Assembly (NCBI RefSeq): GCF_004135585.1
Contig: NZ_CP035501.1
Span: 4,039,501 to 4,103,500, forward strand
Origin: Sphingosinicella sp. BN140058
GTDB taxonomy: Bacteria > Pseudomonadota > Alphaproteobacteria > Sphingomonadales > Sphingomonadaceae
Direction of reading: 5' to 3'
Length of the DNA: 64,000 nucleotides
The notes beneath the pieces are model-generated. The model had not been told where the DNA came from, did not search any database, and was given only the letters and a program-made list of their open reading frames with translations. This document shows positions 8,893 to 29,049 of this stretch, piece by piece; the stretch's first letter is position 1, and every line of letters starts with the position of its first letter. Position numbers and translations under genes: made by a program.

Positions 8893-9471
8893 TCAGGCGC
8901 CGAACCAGCCTTGCTCTCGGGCGATTTCGAGCTGCGGCAGCATATAGGCCCACAAGGCCGGGCATCCGGCGTTAATAGGCGGTCCGATCCGCGCCACCAC
9001 GCGCTCGAAGGCAATCCCGTTCTCGCGCCAGCTCTGGCCGTGATTGGCGAGGTTGAGGAGGGCCGGCATCGCCCGGTCCACGGCGTTTGCGAACCGTGCG
9101 TCCGCCGTCTCTCCCGCCTCGAACTCTCGCCAGAGCGCCAAGAAAGGCGCGCCGCGATCCTCCGGCAAATGGCCGAAGATGCGTTTGACCGCCTCATATT
9201 CCGCCGCCTTGCGCTCCTCCCATCCGCCTTCGGCGAAGACGATCGCGTCGCCGGTGTCGATCTCGCCGACGTCGTGGACGAGCAGCATCGCGACGACCCG
9301 GCTCACGTCGACCTTTTCTTCAGCAAGATGGGCGAGCGAGGCAGCGAGCAGAGCGATCTGCCAGCTATGCTCGGCGCTATTCTCGTATCGATCGAGGCCG
9401 ATCGGTTTGACCTTGCGGGTCACGCCCTTGAGGCGATCGAGCTCCATGACGAAATCAACATAGGCTTGCAT
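8893..9471 (-). CDS. HD-domain phosphohydrolase, YfbR/HDDC2-like
   Basis: The 192-residue protein carries a metal-binding HD motif series: ENSAEHSWQIALLA (His), LLVHDVGEIDTGDAI (His-Asp) and a later Asp in FANAVDRAMP. This arrangement is that of the HD_3 family, including E. coli YfbR 5'-deoxynucleotidase and human HDDC2. A role in hydrolysing deoxynucleoside monophosphates in the cytoplasm is therefore likely. The start ATG is the only one compatible with the conserved N-terminal helix. It is a single-gene unit on the strand opposite its downstream neighbour. Confidence 0.85.
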   Translation of the reverse strand: MQAYVDFVMELDRLKGVTRKVKPIGLDRYENSAEHSWQIALLAASLAHLAEEKVDVSRVVAMLLVHDVGEIDTGDAIVFAEGGWEERKAAEYEAVKRIFGHLPEDRGAPFLALWREFEAGETADARFANAVDRAMPALLNLANHGQSWRENGIAFERVVARIGPPINAGCPALWAYMLPQLEIAREQGWFGA

Positions 9472-9572
9472 AGAGGCCCTCCCTCAGGCGTGCTGCCTAG
9501 CGCTGCTCGGCGGCCCGGGCAAAGGGCGCATTGAAGCTGTTCGCGGCGCACGGCTTCGACTAACGGGGCGCA

Positions 9573-10178
9573 ATGCCGATCCGATCCCTGTTTGCGACCC
9601 TGTTCTACGAAGGGGCGCTTGACGATCCCGCCCTGCTCGCCGAACTGGAGGAGGCCTGTCGTGCGCTCGCCGACGAGGATGAGGCGGGGCGGCGCTGGTC
9701 GCGCGATCACGGCTACCGCGGCTATACCTCTTATGCCTCGCTGAACGATCTGCCGATCCGCGATCCGCGCTTCGCCGATCTGGTGCGGCCGCTCAACCGT
9801 CACGTGGCGAAATTCGCCGCGGATTGCGCCTTCGATCTCGGCGGCCGTCGTCTGAAGCTCGACAGCCTGTGGGTCAACCTGCTCAAGCCCGGCGGGGTTC
9901 ATGGCGCTCACATCCATCCCCACAGCGTCATCTCCGGTACGGTGTACGTCGCGGTGCCGCCCGGTGCCGGGCCGTTGAAGCTCGAGGATCCTCGCCTGGC
10001 GATGATGATGGCGGCCCCTACTCGGCGCGAGGATGCGCCCGAAATGTTACGGACGTTCGTGACTGCGCCGCCGCAGCCGGGTACCGTCTTCCTGTGGGAA
10101 AGCTGGTTGCGGCATGAGGTGGTTCCCGGCACCGGCAAGGATCCGCGGATCAGCATCAGTTTCAATTATCGGGTATAG
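9573..10178 (+). CDS. TIGR02466-family 2OG-Fe(II) oxygenase-like protein
   Basis: The 201-residue protein matches the TIGR02466 pattern: an N-terminal strand SLFATLFYEG, a central GVHGAHIHPHSVISGTVYV block with the HxH metal-ligand type arrangement, and a C-terminal LWESWLRHEVVPG with the distal histidine. These are the facial-triad positions of cupin-like Fe(II)/2-oxoglutarate dioxygenases. Members are common in alphaproteobacteria and marine phages; the substrate is unknown. The ATG follows GGGGCGCA. It stands just upstream of the sigma factor on the same strand but is separated by 66 bases and need not be in the same operon. Confidence 0.8.
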   Translation: MPIRSLFATLFYEGALDDPALLAELEEACRALADEDEAGRRWSRDHGYRGYTSYASLNDLPIRDPRFADLVRPLNRHVAKFAADCAFDLGGRRLKLDSLWVNLLKPGGVHGAHIHPHSVISGTVYVAVPPGAGPLKLEDPRLAMMMAAPTRREDAPEMLRTFVTAPPQPGTVFLWESWLRHEVVPGTGKDPRISISFNYRV

Positions 10179-18111: not shown

Positions 18112-18906
18112 ATGAACGGGAATCACGCGGCCTTGGCCGCCTTCGCGCACAATCTGGCCGATCTCGCGCGGGCCGAGACCCTCCACCGCTTCGAGGCGGG
18201 AGTGGGGGCCGACGACAAGGGTGGCGCGAATGGCTTCGACCCGGTCACCGATGCGGACCGCGAGGCGGAGCGCGCGATGCGCGCTGCGATCGAGGCCGCT
18301 TATCCCGAGCACGGCATCGCCGGCGAGGAATTTCCCGAGCGGCCTTCGAGCGGCCCGTTCGTGTGGAGTCTGGATCCGGTGGACGGCACCCGCTCCTTCA
18401 CCTGCGGCCTGCCCAATTGGGTAACCCTGATCGCTCTGCTCGAGGACGGCCGCCCGACGATAGGGCTGATCGACGTGCCCTGCCTCGGCGAGCGCTATTG
18501 GGGCGCGGGTGGAGACGGAGCTTTCGTCCGCTCCGGGCAGCAGGTGCGGCTCCGCGCCAGCGACCGCACGTCCCTTGCCGAAGCGCGACTCTCGACCACC
18601 GATCCGTATCTTTTCGAAGACGCCGAACGCGGCGCGTTCGAGCGGGTCCGCGCCGGTGTCCGGACCACCCGCTATGGCCATGACGGCTATGCCTATGCCC
18701 GGCTCGCGGCAGGGACGCTCGATCTTGTCATCGAATCACAGCTGAAACCGTATGACTATAACGCTCTCATTCCGGTGGTGCGCGCCGCCGGCGGAGTCAT
18801 CGGTGATTGGACTGGCGGCGACGATTTTTCTGCCGGGCGGGTCATCGCAGCGGCCACGCCCGCTCTGTTCGAGCAGGCGGTGGCCGTGATGCGAGACGCC
18901 GGCTGA
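18112..18906 (+). CDS. hisN: Histidinol-phosphatase, inositol-monophosphatase family
   Basis: The protein of 264 residues belongs to the IMPase superfamily: metal-binding blocks FDPVTDADREAE, GEEFPE, LDPVDGTRSF and the late block KPYDYNALIPVVRAAGG. The KPYDYNALIP version, rather than WDxAP, is that of HisN-type histidinol-phosphate phosphatases of actinobacteria and alphaproteobacteria. It would dephosphorylate L-histidinol phosphate, the step absent from the his operon at 22-29 kb because the HisB part there has no HAD phosphatase domain. An ATG six bases earlier (18106) is possible; the one chosen has GAGG at a better distance. Confidence 0.88.
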   Translation: MNGNHAALAAFAHNLADLARAETLHRFEAGVGADDKGGANGFDPVTDADREAERAMRAAIEAAYPEHGIAGEEFPERPSSGPFVWSLDPVDGTRSFTCGLPNWVTLIALLEDGRPTIGLIDVPCLGERYWGAGGDGAFVRSGQQVRLRASDRTSLAEARLSTTDPYLFEDAERGAFERVRAGVRTTRYGHDGYAYARLAAGTLDLVIESQLKPYDYNALIPVVRAAGGVIGDWTGGDDFSAGRVIAAATPALFEQAVAVMRDAG

Positions 18907-22166: not shown

Positions 22167-22799
22167 TCAGGCTTTGTGTCGTCGGCGCAAGATGTCGACC
22201 ACATCCGTCCACTCATATCCCCGCGCCTCCATCAGCACGGACACGTGGTACAACAGGTCGGCGGTCTCTTCGGCGCAGCCGACGGCGTCTCGGGTGACGC
22301 CGGCAAGCGCGACCTCGACGCCTTCCTCCCCGATCTTCTGCGCGATCTTGGCATTGCCCTCGGCGAGCAGGCGACGGGTGTAGCTCGTCGCCTCGCCCGA
22401 GACGGCGCGGTCGTGAACAATGCGGGAAAGCTCGGCGAGCCAGCCGGGTCCCTGCTCCTCGCCGCCGAAACAGGAGGCGGTGCCGAGATGACAGGTCGGG
22501 CCCTCGGGAATGGCGCGGACGAGGAGGGCATCGGAGTCGCAATCCTCGTGGACGCTGCGCACGGCCAGACGGTTTCCGCTGGTCTCGCCTTTCATCCACA
22601 GCCGCCCCTTGGAGCGGCTGTAGAAGGTGGCGAAGCCGGAGGAGAGGGTGGCAGCGAGCGCTTCCCGATTCATATAGCCGAGCATCAGCAGCCGGCCGGT
22701 GGCGATGTCCTGCACGGCGGCGGGCAGAAGGTCGTCCATCTTCTCCCAGGCGAGCGCGTTGATGTCGGCGGCGCTCAGCGGCGCATTTCGATCCCGCAT
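22167..22799 (-). CDS. hisI: Bifunctional phosphoribosyl-AMP cyclohydrolase / phosphoribosyl-ATP pyrophosphatase
   Basis: Both domains of HisIE are present in 210 residues. The HisI part shows [26 protein letters not shown] and GPTCH, where Asp and Cys residues bind Mg and Zn; the HisE part shows [12 protein letters not shown] and EETADLLYH. The enzyme carries out steps two and three of histidine synthesis. Fusion of these domains is normal in enterobacteria and xanthomonads, whereas most alphaproteobacteria keep hisI and hisE apart. It overlaps hisF by 25 bases and is the last gene of the operon. Confidence 0.95.
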
Positions 22800-23542
22800 G
22801 TTGCCAGATACTCCTTCAATTGGGGGATCGCGATCAGACGATCGTGGAACACGGTGGCGGCCAGCGCGCCGCTTGCGCCGGCCTCGAGGAACGCATCGCG
22901 GAAATGCTCGGGCGCGCCGGCACCGCCGGAGGCGATCACCGGCACTTCGACGCTGTCCACGACGGCCTTGGTGTGGGCGAGATCATAGCCGGTGCGTACG
23001 CCGTCCCGGCGCATGCAATTGAGCACGATTTCGCCGGCACCGCGCTCCGTCGCTTCTCGCGCCCAGTCGAGCGTGCGGCGACCGGTGTCGCGCGTGGCAT
23101 CGGGAGAACCGGTATATTGCTTCACCCAATAGTCTCCGTCCGCCTCGAAGCTGTCGACGCCGAGGACGATGCACTGGCTGCCGAAATCGCGGGCCAGTTC
23201 CTCGATCAAGGCAGGTCGTTCGAGGGCCGGCGAGTTGATCGAGACTTTGTCGGCGCCATTGTCGAGACAGGCTGCAGCCTGGTCGCGGGTTCGGACACCG
23301 CCGGCGACGGCGAACGGAATGTCGATCACCTTCGCAATCCGGCGCACCCATTCAGGGTCGAGGCTGCGCCGCTCCGCGCTCGCGGAGATGTCGTAGAAAA
23401 CCAGCTCGTCGGCGCCTTCTTCACGGTAACGCATCGCGCTCTCGACGATGTCGCCGACATCGCGATGGTCGCGGAACTGGATGCCCTTGACGACGCGGCC
23501 GTCCTTGACGTCGAGGCAGGGGATGATCCTACGCGCCGGCAA
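22775..23542 (-). CDS. hisF: Imidazole glycerol phosphate synthase, cyclase subunit
   Basis: A 255-residue (beta-alpha)8 barrel with the N-terminal [15 protein letters not shown] block holding catalytic Asp11 and the later [11 protein letters not shown] with Asp130-equivalent, and the phosphate loops VAGGVRT and [11 protein letters not shown]. It condenses PRFAR with ammonia delivered by HisH to give imidazole glycerol phosphate and AICAR. Length and motifs are canonical. It overlaps hisA by 14 bases at its 5' end and hisI by 25 at its 3' end. Confidence 0.96.
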
Positions 23543-24248
23543 GGTTCACCGCCTCCTCGAGCGTGATCCGCCCCTCCCACAAAGCCTTGCCGACGATCGC
23601 ACCGTCGGTGTCGAGGCGCTTCAGATCGTCGAGCGACGAAACGCCGCCCGACGCCTGGATGGCGACGTGGGGCAGGCGCCGGCCGGCGTCTTCGAGCAGT
23701 TCGAAATTGGGTCCGGCAAGCATGCCGTCGCGGCCGATATCCGTCAGGAGCAAGTGCCTGGCCTCGGGGTACAAAGCGGCAATGTCCCACAAGGATCGTC
23801 CGCTGTCCTCGGTCCAGCCCGCAGTCGCCACGATGGGCGTTCCGTCGATCACCCGCACGTCGAGCGACAAGGTGATGCGGTCACCGCCATGTTCCGCCAG
23901 GAAGCCGCGGACGAGATCCGGTTGCTTTACAGCGAGACTGCCGATCACCACACGGCCGACGCCGGCGTCGAACATTCGCGCGATCTGCTCGCCGGTCCGA
24001 AATCCGCCGGCAACTTGGAGTCTGAGGGGGGCGGCGCGGGCGAGATCCGCGATCAGATCGTGCTGGACGGGGGTGCCCGCCCGTGCGCCGTCGAGATCGA
24101 CGACATGCGCCCACAGTGCGCCTGCCGCTGCGAATTGGGCCAGCGCTTCTGCCGGATCCGCCGCATAGGTGGTGGCGTCGTCGAAGCGACCCTGCGCGAG
24201 CCGGACGACGCGGCCCCCCATCAGGTCCATGGCGGGATAGATGATCAT
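23529..24248 (-). CDS. hisA: ProFAR isomerase
   Basis: The 239-residue barrel begins [20 protein letters not shown], with the catalytic Asp in AMDL, and shows the phosphate-binding blocks [13 protein letters not shown] and [13 protein letters not shown] plus the second catalytic Asp in TDIGRDG. It isomerises ProFAR to PRFAR. The internal repeat of the half-barrels, typical of HisA and HisF, is visible. The start overlaps the hisH stop by four bases. Confidence 0.96.
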
Positions 24249-24826
24249 GCCTTCAGGAAACTCTCGAGGAAGCGCGCGCCGGCCTCGCCGGAGCGCTCTG
24301 GGTGGAACTGTGCGCCGAGGAAATTGGCGGAACGAACAGCAGCTGGAATCTCGCGCCCGTACTGCGCGCTGGCGACGGTTACCGGCCCCGGATCGCTGGC
24401 GAAGCTGTTGGCGAAATAGACATAGTCGCCTGGCGCGAGTCCAAGATCCGGATCGCGCACATCCAGCTTGCTCCAGCCCATGTGCGGCACCGGCATGCCG
24501 GGCCGTGCCACGAGCTTGCGGACCCGGCCGGGGATGATGCCGAGGCAGGCGGTATCTTCTTCCTCGCTATGTTCGAACAGCAATTGCATGCCCAGGCAGA
24601 TGCCGAGCACCGGCTGAGTGAGCCCGCGCAGCGTTCCGGCAAGGCCGCGGGCGTTGATCTGCTCCATCGCGTAGCCGGCGGCGCCCACCCCGGGAAAGAT
24701 GACCTTGTCGGCCGCGCCGATCACCTCCGGATCCCCGGTGATGGTCGGCGACAGCCCAAATCGCTCGAACGCGATGCCGACCGACCCAATGTTGCCGCAG
24801 CCGATGTCGACGATGACGAGATTCAC
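24245..24826 (-). CDS. hisH: Imidazole glycerol phosphate synthase, glutaminase subunit
   Basis: A class-I glutamine amidotransferase of 193 residues. The catalytic Cys lies in LGICLGMQLLFE, and the His-Glu pair in AQFHPERSGEAG. The oxyanion region PGVGAAGYAMEQ is present. It supplies ammonia to HisF. Translation starts at GTG overlapping the TGA of the fused hisDCB frame, so it is coupled to it. A longer frame upstream only overlaps hisB out of frame. Confidence 0.95.
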   Translation of the reverse strand: MNLVIVDIGCGNIGSVGIAFERFGLSPTITGDPEVIGAADKVIFPGVGAAGYAMEQINARGLAGTLRGLTQPVLGICLGMQLLFEHSEEEDTACLGIIPGRVRKLVARPGMPVPHMGWSKLDVRDPDLGLAPGDYVYFANSFASDPGPVTVASAQYGREIPAAVRSANFLGAQFHPERSGEAGARFLESFLKA

Positions 24827-27800
24827 AACACGCCTTTCGTGCTCGGCATTGCGTCGCGATCGCCCTCGCGCCCGACCGCCTGGCGGAGCGCGCGTCCGAA
24901 TGCCTTGAAGCAGGCCTCGGTCTTGTGGTGGTCGTTTTCGCCCTGCACGCGGACGTGGATCGCCGCGCCGAGGCTGTCGGCCAGCGAGCGGAAGACGTGG
25001 CGGGTCATCTCGGTCGGATAGTCGCCGATGTGGCTCGCCTCGAACGTGCCTTCGAAGACGCTGTACGGGCGTCCGGAAAGGTCGATCAGAACATGCGCCT
25101 CGGTCTCGTCCATCGGCAGGGAGAAACCGAAGCGGCCGATACCGCGTCGGTCGGCGAGCGCGCGCGACAGCGCCGTGCCGAACGCGATCGCGCAATCCTC
25201 GACGCTGTGATGGGCGTCGATTTCGAGATCGCCTTCGCACGACAGGATCAGGCTGAACCCGGCATGCGCTGCAATCTGATCGAGCATGTGGTCGTAGAAA
25301 GGAATGCCGGTGTCGATCTTGCGCGGTGCCGGGCGATCCAGATCGACCGCGACTGCAATCTTGGTCTCTTTGGTGTCGCGCACGACCTCGCCACGCCGGG
25401 CCGGCGAATCGTTGGCCGGAACCCCGAAGGCGGCGAGGGCGGCGTCGTTTTCGGCATCGGTGCCGATCGTGATTCGGACCCCGCCCGGTGCGGCATTCGG
25501 CCGGAAGCGGGCGCGGATGCCGAGGCCGTTGAGCTTCTTTGCGAGAGCGGCAGGATCGTCGACTTCGAGGAACAGGAAGTTGCCGCCGCCGCTGCGCACG
25601 GCGTTAACGATCGGTGCGCGGGCGAACTCGCCAGCCAGCCGATCTCGATCGGCCTTGATCCGCGCGATCCGCTCGAGGTGGATCGGGCGTCGCGATGGCG
25701 AAAGCGCCGCAAGCGCAGCCTCGATCGAAAGGCTCGGCAAGGGATAAGGGGGAAGCGCACGCGCCGCGATCGCGATCAGATCCGGGTTGCCGAGCAAGGC
25801 GCCGATCCGGGCGCCGGCAAGCCCGAAGGCCTTGCTCAGCGTCTTGAGGATGGCGAGGTTGGGCCGACGGATCGCTTCCTCGGCGAGGCTCGGTGTTTCC
25901 GAGAATTCGAGATAGGCCTCGTCGAGCACGATCAGGGTGTTCGGAAGCGCATCGGCGACGCGAAGCACGTCGGCGGGATCGACGAGATTGCCGGTCGGAT
26001 TGTTGGGCGCGCAGATGAAGGCGAGCTTCAGCGACGGCTCGTGGCGGACGGTGTCGAGAAAGGCATCGGCGTCGAAATCGAAATTGGCGTCGAGCTTCGC
26101 TTCGATCAGCCGCGCGCCCTGCAACTTGGCGAAATGGCCGTAAGCCGAGAAGGTCGGCGTGCAGATGGAGACGGCGTCCAGCGCCGGCCGGCAGAAGGCG
26201 CGGATCAGGATGTCGATTGCGTCGTCGGCACCGCGGGTGACGATCAGATTGTCGGGTGCAACACCGTAGAGAGCAGCCATCGCCTTCTTGAGGCGGGCGG
26301 GCTGCGGTTCGGGATAGCGGTTGAGGCCGGCCGCGAGCGCGCCTTCGCTGAGCGGCGCGAATGGATTCTCGTTGGCGTCGAGCTTGATCGCATCCGGCCC
26401 GAACGCCTCGTTCGCCTGCGCCGCAATATCGAACGGCGGCAGCGCAAGGATCTCCGGTCTCGCCAAGGCTTCCGCCACCTCTTTCACTCCCCTCCCGCTC
26501 GGGGAAGGGAATGGGGGTGGGGCAGCGTTGGAACCTGCCGCAACCGCTAGCCGCGCATCGGCCGAACGGGCATGCGCTTCCAGGCCCTCGAGCCGTGCCA
26601 GCGCCGCCGCCGGGCCCGCAATGCGCACAGCGGCCTCGGCCGTGACCGTCTGCACGCTGATCGCCTTGAGGAAGGTATAGGCCGAAACCCCGCTCCAGGC
26701 GCGGGCTGCGCCGTCGGTAGGAAGGACATGGCTGGATCCGGCGAGATAATCGCCGAACGTCTCGGACGCGAGGCGGCCGGCGAAGATCGCGCCAGCGTTG
26801 CGTATGCCTCCGAGCAGGTCTTCAGGCTGTGCCACGGCCAGCGACAGATGCTCGGGCGCATAGAGATTGGCGACCTCTGCCGCGTCCTTGAGATCGGCGG
26901 TGATGACGAACCGGGCATGGGCCAGCGACGCCTCGGCAATCTCCGCGCGCGGCAGCGTCGCCGCCTGTGCGGACACTTCACGCTCCACGGCGTCGGCGAG
27001 TGCCTTGGACGGCGTCGCCAGCAACACCTGCGCCGTCGGATCATGCTCGGCCTGGCTGAGCAGGTCGGCGGCGACCGTTGTCGGATCCGCGCTGTCGTCG
27101 GCGATCACCATCAGTTCGCTCGGCCCCGCCGGCATGTCGATCGCAGCTCCGCCGGGCAGCGAGGCGACGTAATTCTTCGCCTCGGCGACCCAGGCGTTGC
27201 CAGGTCCGCAGATCTTCGCCGCCGCCGGGATGTCGCCGGCGCCGAACGCCAGAGCGGCGATCGCCTGCGCACCGCCGACCGTCCAGATCGCGTCGATTTC
27301 ACAAAGCTCTGCGGCAAGCGCGATCACCGGATCGAGTCCGCCGCCGGGGCGGGGCGGCGTTGCGACGACGATCTCGGCAACGCCGGCGGCACGGGCCGGG
27401 ATGGCGAGCATCAGCAGAGTTGAGAAAAGCGGCGTCTTGCCACCGGGAATGTAGAGCCCAACCCGGTCGATCGCCCGCCAGATCTTGCGAACGGTAAGGC
27501 CAGGCAGCGTCTCGACGACATGATCCTGCGGCAAGCTGCCGGCGTGAAAGGTTTCGATGTTGCGCGCAGCCAGCTCGATCGCTTCAATCTGATCTGCGGA
27601 AAGGGTGCGGCGTGCCTCGGCGGCGATCGGCGCCACGGCGACCCGCGTCGGCGCTTCGCCGTCGAGGCGGGTCGCCTGCTGCACCAGCGCTTCCCAGCCG
27701 CGGCTGCGGACGTCGTCGACGATCGCGCGCACCGCGACCTGCAGAGCGGGATCGCTGCGCTGCTCGGGGCGGGCGAGGGCTATGCGGCGCGCGGCCGCGT

Positions 27801-27828
27801 TCAGATCGGTCCAGTTGTAGGTCTTCAC
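24823..27828 (-). CDS. hisDCB: HisD-HisC-HisB triple fusion (histidinol dehydrogenase / histidinol-phosphate aminotransferase / IGP dehydratase)
   Basis: One uninterrupted frame of 1001 codons holds three complete enzymes. HisD spans about residues 1-430 (GPGNAWVAEAKNYVA, MPAGPSELMVIADDSAD, LYAPEHLSL). HisC spans about 451-810 with ANENPF, NRYPEP, CAPNNPTG, LDEAYLEF and the PLP lysine in LKTLSKAFGLAG. HisB (IGP dehydratase only, no HAD phosphatase) spans about 816-1001 with FYDHMLDQIAAH, AHHSVEDC and GENDHHKTEA. The first linker contains APPPFPSPSGRG, the translation of a palindromic GC-rich repeat. A GTG at codon 451 has an excellent internal Shine-Dalgarno (GGGAGGGGAG, 8 bases away), so separate HisC may also be made. 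Each part keeps its key residues. Triple fusion of these enzymes is not a pattern I know. Sequencing error cannot be excluded, but two independent junctions would both need one. Confidence 0.88.
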   Translation of the reverse strand: MKTYNWTDLNAAARRIALARPEQRSDPALQVAVRAIVDDVRSRGWEALVQQATRLDGEAPTRVAVAPIAAEARRTLSADQIEAIELAARNIETFHAGSLPQDHVVETLPGLTVRKIWRAIDRVGLYIPGGKTPLFSTLLMLAIPARAAGVAEIVVATPPRPGGGLDPVIALAAELCEIDAIWTVGGAQAIAALAFGAGDIPAAAKICGPGNAWVAEAKNYVASLPGGAAIDMPAGPSELMVIADDSADPTTVAADLLSQAEHDPTAQVLLATPSKALADAVEREVSAQAATLPRAEIAEASLAHARFVITADLKDAAEVANLYAPEHLSLAVAQPEDLLGGIRNAGAIFAGRLASETFGDYLAGSSHVLPTDGAARAWSGVSAYTFLKAISVQTVTAEAAVRIAGPAAALARLEGLEAHARSADARLAVAAGSNAAPPPFPSPSGRGVKEVAEALARPEILALPPFDIAAQANEAFGPDAIKLDANENPFAPLSEGALAAGLNRYPEPQPARLKKAMAALYGVAPDNLIVTRGADDAIDILIRAFCRPALDAVSICTPTFSAYGHFAKLQGARLIEAKLDANFDFDADAFLDTVRHEPSLKLAFICAPNNPTGNLVDPADVLRVADALPNTLIVLDEAYLEFSETPSLAEEAIRRPNLAILKTLSKAFGLAGARIGALLGNPDLIAIAARALPPYPLPSLSIEAALAALSPSRRPIHLERIARIKADRDRLAGEFARAPIVNAVRSGGGNFLFLEVDDPAALAKKLNGLGIRARFRPNAAPGGVRITIGTDAENDAALAAFGVPANDSPARRGEVVRDTKETKIAVAVDLDRPAPRKIDTGIPFYDHMLDQIAAHAGFSLILSCEGDLEIDAHHSVEDCAIAFGTALSRALADRRGIGRFGFSLPMDETEAHVLIDLSGRPYSVFEGTFEASHIGDYPTEMTRHVFRSLADSLGAAIHVRVQGENDHHKTEACFKAFGRALRQAVGREGDRDAMPSTKGVL
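26483..26518. repeat. GC-rich palindromic repeat in the HisD-HisC linker
   Basis: The stretch CCCCTCCCGCTCGGGGAAGG and its flanks form an imperfect palindrome of the same CTCCCC...GGGGAG type found between rpoB and rpoC and near 41.2 kb. Here it is read in frame as Pro-Ser-Pro-Ser-Gly-Arg-Gly in the hisDCB ORF. On the minus strand it also supplies a strong ribosome-binding sequence before the HisC part. Confidence 0.6.
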
Positions 27829-28715
27829 AGCATCATCTTTTCGATCGGCAGGACGAGGATCGCGGAGGCGCCCGCGGCTTTCAGCTTCTGCAGCGTCTCC
27901 CAGAAGACGGATTCCTGGCAGACCGCATGGACCGCGAAATGGCCGGGGCGGCCGTGGAGCGGGATGATCGTCGGCGCCTCGGCGCCGGGCAGAATGTCGG
28001 TGATCTCGCGCAGCGCCTCGCTCGGCGCGTTGAGCATGATGTATTTCGATTCCTTGGTGGCGAGCACGCCGTCGATCCGGCTGAGCAATTGCGCGCCCTG
28101 CTCGACCTTCGCCTCGGCCATCGGCTTTCCGGTGCGCACCAGTACCGCTTCGCTTTCGAACACCGTTTCGACCGCGCGAAGCCCGTTCGCCTCCAGTGTC
28201 GCGCCGGTCGAGACGAGGTCGCAGATGAATCCGGCGATCTGCAGGCGCGGCGCGAGTTCGACGGCCCCGTTCATCTTGACCACCGTCGCCTCGATCCCCC
28301 GATCGTCCAGGAAGCGCTGGAGGATACGCGGGTAAGAGGTGGCGATGCGGGCGCCGCGGAGCGACTCGGGTCCCTCGTAGCCGGTGGCCTCCGGTGCCGC
28401 GATCTTGAGCGTGCAGCGGCCGAAGCCGAGCTGCGCAACGACTTCGAAGCGGGGCTCGGGCTCGCCGAGCGAGAATTCACGCAGCACGTTCTCGCCGACG
28501 ATGCCGAATTCGCAGACTCCGTCGCTGACGAAGATCGGGATGTCGTCGTCACGCACGAACATCAGGTCGGCGGGGAAATTGTCCACCCGTGCCGTCAGAT
28601 CGTTCTTTCCGTTCTGGATCTTGAGGCCGGCGTCGCGGAGCAGCCCGCGACTGTAATCGGACAAGCGGCCCGATTTCTGAATGGCGATGTGCAGGCGGGT
28701 CTGGTCAACGAGCAT
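27825..28715 (-). CDS. hisG: ATP phosphoribosyltransferase, long form
   Basis: At 296 residues this is the long, self-regulated HisG: an N-terminal catalytic part (LHIAIQKSGRLSD, RDDDIPIFVSDGV, GIVGENVLRE, CDLVSTGATLEANGLR) and a C-terminal regulatory domain ending ASAILVLPIEKMML, almost identical in pattern to the enterobacterial enzyme. Most alphaproteobacteria use short HisG with HisZ instead. It commits ATP and PRPP to histidine synthesis and should be inhibited by histidine. The start overlaps the regulator gene by 11 bases, and the stop overlaps hisDCB by four. Confidence 0.95.
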   Translation of the reverse strand: MLVDQTRLHIAIQKSGRLSDYSRGLLRDAGLKIQNGKNDLTARVDNFPADLMFVRDDDIPIFVSDGVCEFGIVGENVLREFSLGEPEPRFEVVAQLGFGRCTLKIAAPEATGYEGPESLRGARIATSYPRILQRFLDDRGIEATVVKMNGAVELAPRLQIAGFICDLVSTGATLEANGLRAVETVFESEAVLVRTGKPMAEAKVEQGAQLLSRIDGVLATKESKYIMLNAPSEALREITDILPGAEAPTIIPLHGRPGHFAVHAVCQESVFWETLQKLKAAGASAILVLPIEKMML

Positions 28716-29034
28716 GGGGGGTTCCGAGACTGTCGATGGCGCGGCGGTAGCCCTCATTCGGCTCCTGGCGCAGAAAACGGGCGACGCGGACGATGGTTGT
28801 CGTGCTGACCCCGGTCGCCTCATGAATTTCGCGATAGGAAAGGTCGGTGCCGTCCAGCAGACGGGCAACGTGCCAGCGTTCGGCCAGCGTGCGGATCTCG
28901 GACGGTGTGCAGAGATCGGTCAGCAGGCGCGCCATCTCCGCCGTGTTATCAGGCGTGAGCAGGGCAGCGCAGAGGTCCTGCGTCAACGCTTTGGCGTCGC
29001 GCGTCGCCTCGATCGGAGCGTCCTTGCCTGCCAT
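28705..29034 (-). CDS. TrpR/YerC-family transcriptional regulator, first gene of the his operon
   Basis: This 109-residue protein is of the YerC/YecD TrpR-like family: LLTDLCTPSEIRTLAERWHVARLL followed by a helix-turn-helix SYREIHEATGVSTTTIVRVARFL. TrpR of enterobacteria binds tryptophan as corepressor; xanthomonads have a TrpR-family protein heading a his operon of this same order. A histidine-responsive repressor is therefore the natural reading, though the ligand is inference. The ATG was preferred to an in-frame TTG 12 bases earlier. An 8-base palindrome GTTATAAC lies 16 bases before the start. Confidence 0.85.
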   Translation of the reverse strand: MAGKDAPIEATRDAKALTQDLCAALLTPDNTAEMARLLTDLCTPSEIRTLAERWHVARLLDGTDLSYREIHEATGVSTTTIVRVARFLRQEPNEGYRRAIDSLGTPHAR

Positions 29035-29049
29035 CCAGTGTTCCAACGT

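Follow-up and report, generated by a model that had tools for sequence, protein, structure and literature searches.

A HisD-HisC-HisB frame in the histidine operon of Sphingosinicella: a likely trifunctional protein of probable two-step origin

Histidine synthesis is a textbook example of gene fusions shaping pathways. In the accessible text of two reviews, seven his genes are known in fusions, and hisC is not among them (PMC1963479, PMC10138114). Known multifunctional his proteins include HisNB (the bifunctional HisB of E. coli and others), HisIE, and fungal HIS4 (HisI-HisE-HisD), for which the available part of one review describes a variable linker (PMC1963479). In Acanthamoeba, a heptafunctional his gene combines several his enzymes, including histidinol dehydrogenase, in one protein, according to the portion of the paper at hand (PMC6029752). 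Outside this pathway, an excerpted account of the Rickettsia palindromic elements reports a dispersed palindromic repeat lying in frame within conserved proteins (PMC2229807).

The window, a 64,000-nucleotide stretch of Sphingosinicella sp. BN140058, carries complete HisD, HisC and HisB in one 1001-codon frame (hisDCB), and the coordinates, strand, length and domains given in the original prediction are confirmed. A search of open-licence papers agrees with its statement that it knew of no described fusion of this kind; comparable sequences are already public (e.g. P0002, P0003). It is quite likely that the product is one 105-kDa trifunctional enzyme of two-step origin. The frame, its domains and the selection on them, the overlap in split relatives, the phylogeny and the repeat content are read from sequence, whereas the activity of the domains, the order of the mutational steps and the assembly are inferred.

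The hisDCB frame and its operon

The his genes and the domains of hisDCB are as follows.

28705..29046, minus strand: YerC/TrpR-family regulator (TIGR02531 above cut-off), directly upstream of hisG
27825..28868, minus strand: hisG frame, with the HisG match from residue 59 on and a 4-nt GTGA overlap with hisDCB at its end
24823..27828, minus strand: hisDCB, one frame of 1001 residues from a GTG start to a TGA stop
26548..27768, minus strand: HisD (histidinol dehydrogenase) domain, residues 21-427 (PF00815, TIGR00069; 1k75 aligned to query residues 5-426)
26461..26547, minus strand: D-C linker, residues 428-456, between the HisD and HisC domains
25426..26460, minus strand: HisC (histidinol-phosphate aminotransferase) domain, residues 457-801 (TIGR01141 above cut-off; 1fg3 aligned)
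24826..25401, minus strand: HisB (IGP dehydratase, IGPD) domain, residues 810-1001 (PF00475 and NF002111 above cut-offs; IGPD structures)
24245..24826, minus strand: hisH, 4-nt GTGA overlap with the hisDCB end; start read from sequence
23529..24248, minus strand: hisA (best family TIGR00007, 210 bits, below the cut-off of 229)
22775..23542, minus strand: hisF (TIGR00735 above cut-off)
22167..22799, minus strand: hisIE fusion (NF002747 above cut-off)
18136..18891, plus strand: candidate hisN, an inositol-monophosphatase-type histidinol-phosphatase (TIGR02067 270 bits, just below the cut-off of 275; PF00459)

From stop to stop, the frame spans 1217 codons, and the 1001 residues of the product (computed mass 105.06 kDa) contain three Pfam families only. 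Each part belongs to its expected enzyme family: TIGR00069 scored 454 bits for HisD (cut-off 244), TIGR01141 290 bits for HisC (cut-off 277), and NF002111 and PF00475 236 and 193 bits for HisB (cut-offs 231 and 27). The HisB domain contains HHxxED and HHKxE, which we take to be its metal motifs. In an alignment of 28 fused proteins (26 full and two partial), HisD Q259, H262, E326, H327, D360 and H419 and HisC K666 showed no variation; these residues are presumably catalytic or metal-binding. In the 1fg3 alignment, K666 is paired with the TLSKAF lysine of E. coli HisC, and the lysine of the TLSKxF/SLSK motif is assumed to be the PLP lysine of HisC. Compared with S. deserti, identity reached 83% for HisD, 92% for HisC and 96% for HisB, and 26% for the linker. 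Across the three domains dN was 0.026-0.106 and dS 0.73-0.76, which indicates purifying selection on all of them.

In this 2-contig genome, hisDCB is the only strong match to HisD, HisC or HisB; no second copy of comparable strength was found in the genome, where the three other matches (32-42 bits) all concern the aminotransferase part. At least 26 full-length proteins have all three domains, with differing linkers; these one-frame homologues, the purifying selection on every domain and the lack of internal starts in three of the four linkers read as DNA support the physical linkage that the original prediction had suggested. Two of them, P0002 and P0003, carry the public-database label 'Multifunctional fusion protein'.

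Histidine synthesis uses HisB at step 6, HisC at step 7, HisN at step 8 and HisD at steps 9-10. Hence, the description of the fused steps as non-consecutive applies to HisD, which the HisN step sets apart, and not to HisB and HisC, which are consecutive. The step lacking in the fusion corresponds to the candidate hisN, a separate gene 3.3 kb away, so that step 8 would be supplied in trans and hisDCB would cover steps 6, 7 and 9-10. HisN was matched strongly (E 3e-71 or better) in 18 of 21 genomes of the genus that have HisD, HisC or HisB matches and in none of the five without; the three other his-bearing genomes (G021, G022 and G023, 68-82% complete) had a partial HisN only. The YerC/TrpR-family gene adjoined hisG in 17 of 19 loci examined.

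The D-C linker, its palindrome and its internal starts

26487..26509, no strand assigned: GC-rich palindrome in the D-C linker, translated FPSPSGRG, apparently a single arm of a repeat that is dispersed and otherwise of doublet type

REP doublets and REPIN-like elements consist of two inverted palindromes, are dispersed in the genome, and are mobilised by a RAYT transposase. No relevant literature on REPIN in Sphingomonas was found, judging by title. A pattern modelled on the linker palindrome matched the window only at the palindrome itself and the genome at five places including it, the other four sitting in three inverted doublets; the window's linker copy has one arm only. Its general form occurred at 52 genome places against none in the control. 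The exact 21-base palindrome was not found elsewhere in the genome within two mismatches, and the repeat family is visible only by looser genome searches.

Among the 26 fused proteins, 14 linkers (the window's included) resembled a translated GC-rich palindrome, two a second repeat and ten neither, by simple patterns that were defined after the linkers had been seen. Repeat signatures occurred in 16 of 26 fused linkers but, of the tails of 120 split HisD proteins, in 7, a strong difference in raw counts (Fisher p 9e-10). Since the rows are related and the 120 split HisD proteins were the best-scoring matches to the window among those listed, we do not claim that repeat and fusion are statistically linked; a pair test corrected for relatedness left three independent pairs and had no power. 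In many fusions, a palindromic repeat at the old overlap site is probably now translated as the flexible linker.

The same linker bears on whether the frame yields a second product. In the window, LARPEI is preceded by in-frame GTG codons at offsets of -7 and -4 residues, with a TTG at offset 0; GGGAGGGGA stands immediately 5' of the first GTG. These codons, near the old HisC start, make a shorter product possible in the window strain, and a continuous frame that also releases free HisCB from a start inside the linker, the two forms coexisting, would account for them. However, the linker is free of ATG, GTG and TTG in three of the four fusions read as DNA, its last 10 residues, where split HisCB starts, include no Met in 25 of the 26 fused proteins, and the purine run before the first GTG is paired in a predicted RNA hairpin. 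A coexisting free HisCB is therefore rather unlikely. The re-initiation suggested originally is accordingly not a conserved feature, since the starts are missing from three of four linkers. An RNA element at the junction was considered as well and rejected, the hairpin being only modestly better than shuffles (z -2.27), of which 7 of 200 were as good.

Two fusions of probably different age

The three-domain frame is real, but the evidence favours two steps, HisC-HisB first and HisD later, rather than the one triple fusion originally read. Of the genomes sampled, 25 of 396 in the order and 11 of 385 in the class carry a HisC-HisB fusion. This fusion is old and widespread, the triple fusion younger and apparently recurrent.

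A first tree of the HisB domain started from 155 rows, 139 after removal of 16 duplicates or broken sequences. In a tree of 47 hand-picked rows of the 139, the HisB domains of HisCB grouped with those of HisNB, with support of 97/86 and 96/85, and a topology test on these rows did not reject a single HisCB origin (p-AU 0.44). HisNB labels were based on upstream length or kinship, and HAD-type domains were confirmed with Pfam in two of them, L083 and L084; L083, a gammaproteobacterial MAG, has the matching gene order, with HisC adjoining HisNB. Because the HisB domain of HisCB groups with HisNB and not with ordinary alphaproteobacterial HisB, HisCB probably arose through loss of the N domain from HisNB. 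In an alphaproteobacterial ancestor with a compact hisGDC[NB]HAF[IE]-type operon, HisNB would have dropped its HAD phosphatase (N) domain, joining HisC directly to HisB. An origin from ordinary alphaproteobacterial hisC and hisB might be suggested by the free-standing HisB frames listed for 27 of the 34 relatives that do not belong to the genus (at the cut-off used, HisC did not appear), but it is quite unlikely, as a clade of HisCB with canonical alphaproteobacterial HisB was rejected (p-AU 0.00035) and the gene order around HisCB is that of operons with HisNB.

The addition of HisD to HisCB probably came later and more than once: a tree that forces the triple fusions into one clade was rejected (p-AU 0.00025). 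Well-supported branches force three split/fused changes in the tree behind this value, whose bootstrap had not settled, and four in another tree; a quick-method tree of all 52 rows required four, three of them forced by well-supported branches. The tree for the AU test omits five of 26 split rows that are distant or long (L024, L025, L050, L059 and L061), and L045, with hisD in two frames, entered the triple-fusion trees with a truncated HisD. Such minimum-change counts are by themselves blind to gain versus loss and do not strictly separate repeated gain from a gain followed by fissions. A single HisD-HisCB fusion with several later fissions is nevertheless improbable on the structure of the split junctions. 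At the DNA level, 25 of 26 distinct split hisD/hisCB junctions are 4-nt overlaps (22 ATGA, three GTGA; L047 has a one-base TGATG overlap), and the HisCB start has a common position in 77 of the 91 proteins compared among those listed (one of them, P0069, being a HisD-HisC fragment); repeated fission would need to recreate both.

For repeated joining, length changes in the Allosphingosinicella/Sphingosinicella group would have destroyed the 4-nt overlap and brought the frames into register. A merging indel error, finally, is extremely improbable: HisCB of split relatives lies in the -1 frame relative to HisD, so that a net +1 base at the ATGA overlap would suffice to merge the two overlapping genes, and the MAG relative G012/L056 appears broken in this gene, but the fused proteins, at least 26 and of several sources, have unlike linkers, ATGA is lost in all four fusions read as DNA (the other 22 of the 26 were read as protein), the EAHA-to-LARP stretch of 27-73 residues exceeds the summed typical split tails (16 + 7) by 4-50, and the window genome is a 2-contig assembly. 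On the number and variety of these homologues, a sequencing artefact was rejected.

Predicted assembly and comparison with known fusions

The AF2 model, built on an alignment of 59 sequences including 25 of the 26 fused proteins, has pLDDT below 50 at linker residues 433-446 and low confidence at the C-B hinge (residues 806-808). Values below 50 also occur inside the domains, among others at 100-116, 364-389, 466-496 and 988-1001. With a pTM of 0.49 and these stretches, the mutual placement of the domains is not predicted. Among 50 Foldseek matches listed against the PDB, the chains were of HisD, HpsN and HisC type, with no HisB and none spanning two of the hisDCB domains.

IGP dehydratase is a 24-mer with 432 symmetry, and the homologues 7oj5 and 6ezm were deposited with 24 chains. 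By analogy, the hisDCB product may form a 24-subunit assembly. If the HisB part retains the 24-mer, the particle would measure about 2.5 MDa (2.52 MDa computed for 24 copies) and contain each enzyme 24 times; under that symmetry, HisC and HisD dimers could occupy the twelve two-fold axes. As a tentative and rather doubtful combination, mobile palindromic doublets landing at the hisD/hisCB ATGA overlap would repeatedly have supplied a ready in-frame linker. A selfish repeat would thereby have converted a translationally coupled gene pair into a trienzyme more than once within a single genus, and a 24-subunit core of HisB would carry the resulting histidine-synthesis particle, of that size.

Here hisC belongs to an old, widespread fusion and also to a triple fusion that is younger and apparently recurrent, the ancestral hisD/hisCB junction of which is still legible in split relatives. 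With close split and fused relatives, one can test directly how fusion affects flux, stoichiometry and assembly, and the linkers form a natural series for the question whether palindromic repeats promote gene fusion.

Among the described systems, HisNB shares with hisDCB the IGP dehydratase branch, the operon position and an N-terminal partner. That partner is a HAD phosphatase in HisNB, whereas in hisDCB it is HisC (plus HisD) and the HAD domain is absent. HIS4 likewise combines several his functions, HisD among them, and has a variable linker; in the bacterial hisDCB, however, HisD is N-terminal and joined to HisC and HisB instead of HisIE, no HisI or HisE domain precedes it, and HisIE is a separate gene. 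The latter is also a his gene fusion in the same operon, but combines other enzymes and steps. The Acanthamoeba gene is, in contrast, eukaryotic with seven activities, and the accessible part of its description does not name IGP dehydratase as one of them (PMC6029752). Finally, hisDCB resembles the Rickettsia palindromic elements in having a palindromic repeat in frame, but here the repeat belongs to a different family and lies between two former genes as a fusion linker (PMC2229807).

The hisDCB frame and its operon

HisD, HisC and HisB were found to share a single frame, in agreement with the original prediction of one polypeptide. This gene and the features discussed with it are the following.

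24823–27828, minus strand: hisDCB, one uninterrupted frame from a GTG start to a TGA stop, 1001 aa, 105.06 kDa
28705–29046: YerC/TrpR-family regulator, beside hisG
18136–18891, strand opposite hisDCB: candidate HisN of the inositol-monophosphatase type, scoring 270 bits and thus falling slightly short of its 275-bit cut-off
26487–26509: GC-rich palindrome in the hisDCB linker, the only place in the window that fits a pattern built from the palindrome itself (0.01 expected)

The product contains exactly three Pfam families, namely histidinol dehydrogenase, class I/II aminotransferase and IGP dehydratase, and each part has at least one NCBI model above its curated cut-off. In PDB searches, the parts aligned to HisD (1k75), HisC (1fg3) and IGP dehydratases, and none of the best-aligned stretches obtained with the whole protein (best 60 of 96) covered two domains. 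No second copy of comparable strength was found in the window's own genome. Comparison with S. deserti and S. parva gave dN of 0.03–0.13 and dS of 0.73–0.84 for the domains; judged from sequence, the domains are conserved and the linker is unconserved.

The gene lies in a compact operon in the order YerC/TrpR-type regulator, hisG, hisDCB, hisH, hisA, hisF and hisIE, with a 4-nt GTGA overlap at both hisG/hisDCB and hisDCB/hisH. HisR of Gram-positives belongs to the TrpR family. A YerC/TrpR-family regulator adjoins hisG in 17 of the 19 loci inspected, one of which comes from a gammaproteobacterial MAG, and the one in the window is a candidate regulator of the histidine operon. HisR is a regulator described for Gram-positives in an extract of one paper (PMC9413887).

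Distribution of fused, split and absent forms

Across the 26 genus genomes, the triple fusion occupies one frame in four (the window's own G000, with G015, G003 and G007), and HisD is separate from the HisC-HisB fusion (HisCB) in 13. Only part of the HisD/C/B genes is shown in three (G021, G023, G024), and in G012 this gene is broken or misassembled. In the latter (L056/L022), HisD and HisC share a frame, the start of HisC is missing and a frame break falls within HisC, reflecting either an assembly error or a decaying gene. The other five (G006, G016, G018, G019, G025) gave no HisD/C/B match at 1e-40 and no HisG, and their best HisN-family match reached just 7e-44 to 6e-53. This combination fits whole-pathway loss, which is probable in these genomes (5/26 of the genus, 5/21 of those passing 90/5 quality limits). 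G021 (82% complete) was a sixth genome without a HisG match.

A protein search with the hisDCB product scored 7994 candidates and returned 1331 matches. Among the best 120 of these, at least 26 are full-length triple fusions (P0001–P0026, identity 68–100%), which bears out the predicted architecture; a few are partial or HisD-HisC forms (P0027–P0029, P0069), and the remainder are HisC-HisB proteins of ~550 aa. With G000 counted in both samples, HisC-HisB in one frame was detected in 25/396 order and 11/385 class genomes (E 1e-80 or better). Among named records, carriers of the HisC-HisB fusion are, for example, genomes or MAGs of SAR116/Puniceispirillum, Rhodobiaceae and Caulobacteraceae. In two class genomes, G337 and G122, matching starts only mid-HisC. 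Their loci (L165 and L166) have a HisC half shortened at the N-terminus, with the SLSK lysine replaced (SLSL), and a HisB that looks intact. This HisC half looks degenerate, and a pseudo-aminotransferase retained as HisB partner would suggest a structural role. Elsewhere, hisD appears split across two frames in a Sphingomonas sediminicola record (L045, 7989–9290), and it was not found between hisG and hisCB in two further loci (L071, L073).

Origin of the two junctions

In a 47-row HisB-domain tree, HisCB nests within a group of otherwise gammaproteobacterial and Ornithinimicrobiaceae HisNB proteins (HAD phosphatase plus HisB), with support of 97/86 and 96/85, and a single HisCB origin is compatible with this tree (p-AU 0.44). 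Grouping HisCB with canonical alphaproteobacterial HisB was rejected (cost 42 log units, p-AU 0.00035). In L083, a MAG from the Gammaproteobacteria, the genes run regulator-G-D-C-[NB]-H-A-F-IE, and Pfam recognises the HAD domain of the HisNB. The simplest reading is that the N domain would have been lost from HisNB and HisC joined to HisB, the phosphatase role being handed over to HisN.

The candidate HisN gene at 18136–18891, ~3.3 kb beyond hisIE, is the best match for histidinol-phosphate phosphatase, the step between HisC and HisD. Among the 21 genus genomes with HisD/C/B matches, 18 have a best HisN-family match of 3e-71 or better, and the matches of the other three (G021, G022 and G023) are partial. 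In L076, an alphaproteobacterial MAG, hisD and hisCB are separated by a HisN-like gene (9464–10034); in L051 and L052 such a gene is found downstream of hisIE on the same strand.

At the 26 distinct split junctions read as DNA, HisCB sits in the -1 frame; 22 are ATGA overlaps, three are GTGA overlaps, and the last (L047) is TGATG, with one base common to stop and start. This overlap is gone from all four fused forms read as DNA, and the stretch from EAHA to LARP spans 27–73 residues in the 26 fused proteins versus ~23 (16 + 7) for two typical split tails summed. One clade for the 26 fused forms was rejected on a 47-row D+CB tree (p-AU 0.00025, cost 162 log units). The fused/split state changes eight times on the best such tree, whose bootstrap had not settled, with three changes forced by well-supported branches; quick-method trees gave seven changes (four forced; 142-row HisCB) and four (three forced; 52-row D+CB). 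Because the split forms have the overlap and start in common, we read the HisD-HisCB fusion as gained repeatedly, a history not strictly separable from gain followed by later fission.

Four further G000 matches to the linker palindrome (84–89% over 35–37 bases, similarity search) sit in three inverted doublets. The general form CCCTCCCN{2,10}GGGAGGG occurs at 52 places in G000, versus 0 for the backward-read pattern, and in 26/26 genus genomes (1–91 each; control 0–2). With up to one mismatch allowed, the DNA of a second repeat family, the palindromic CTTCGACAAGCTCAGNNCGAACGG, was found 98 times in G000 (45 forward, 53 reverse; control 0) and in 23/26 genus genomes; among the places listed, many copies form inverted pairs ~60 bases apart. 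By peptide signatures devised after the linkers had been inspected, 14/26 fused linkers carry the palindrome family, 2/26 the second family (FGLSLSK...FDKLRPNG) and 10/26 neither. Of 120 split HisD proteins, ten have long tails, six carry the palindrome-family and one the second-family signature; both signatures were absent from the control HisD and HisCB parts checked. In a split relative (L010), a full palindrome doublet lies in the hisD tail directly ahead of ATGA, making this gene a plausible intermediate towards fusion. The statistical association of repeat with fusion is confounded by kinship.

Possible assembly and comparison with known fusions

The AF2 model contains three mostly confident units, with low confidence at the D-C linker (433–446), the C-B hinge (806–808) and further in-domain stretches; at a pTM of 0.49, it does not fix the domain arrangement. 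In the HisD dimer the C-terminus is swapped, so a long flexible linker at that end would make sense; the title of an E. coli HisD structure mentions domain swapping. IGP dehydratases 7oj5 and 6ezm were deposited with 24 chains, and if hisDCB kept this assembly, HisD:HisC:HisB would be fixed at 1:1:1 in a particle of ~2.5 MDa. Re-initiation, which had been suggested, is on the DNA evidence not a conserved feature of the fusions, as ATG, GTG and TTG are absent from three of four linkers read as DNA; the window's own linker does hold three such codons.

The claim that the triple fusion is undescribed agrees with a search of open-licence papers by title or abstract start, which found no description of a HisC-HisB or HisD-HisC fusion; the papers that came up concern Corynebacterium, Brucella and other subjects. 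In extracts of two papers, hisC is missing from the list of fused his genes (PMC1963479, PMC10138114). In the databases, the fused proteins of A. deserti and S. parva carry the label 'Multifunctional fusion protein'.
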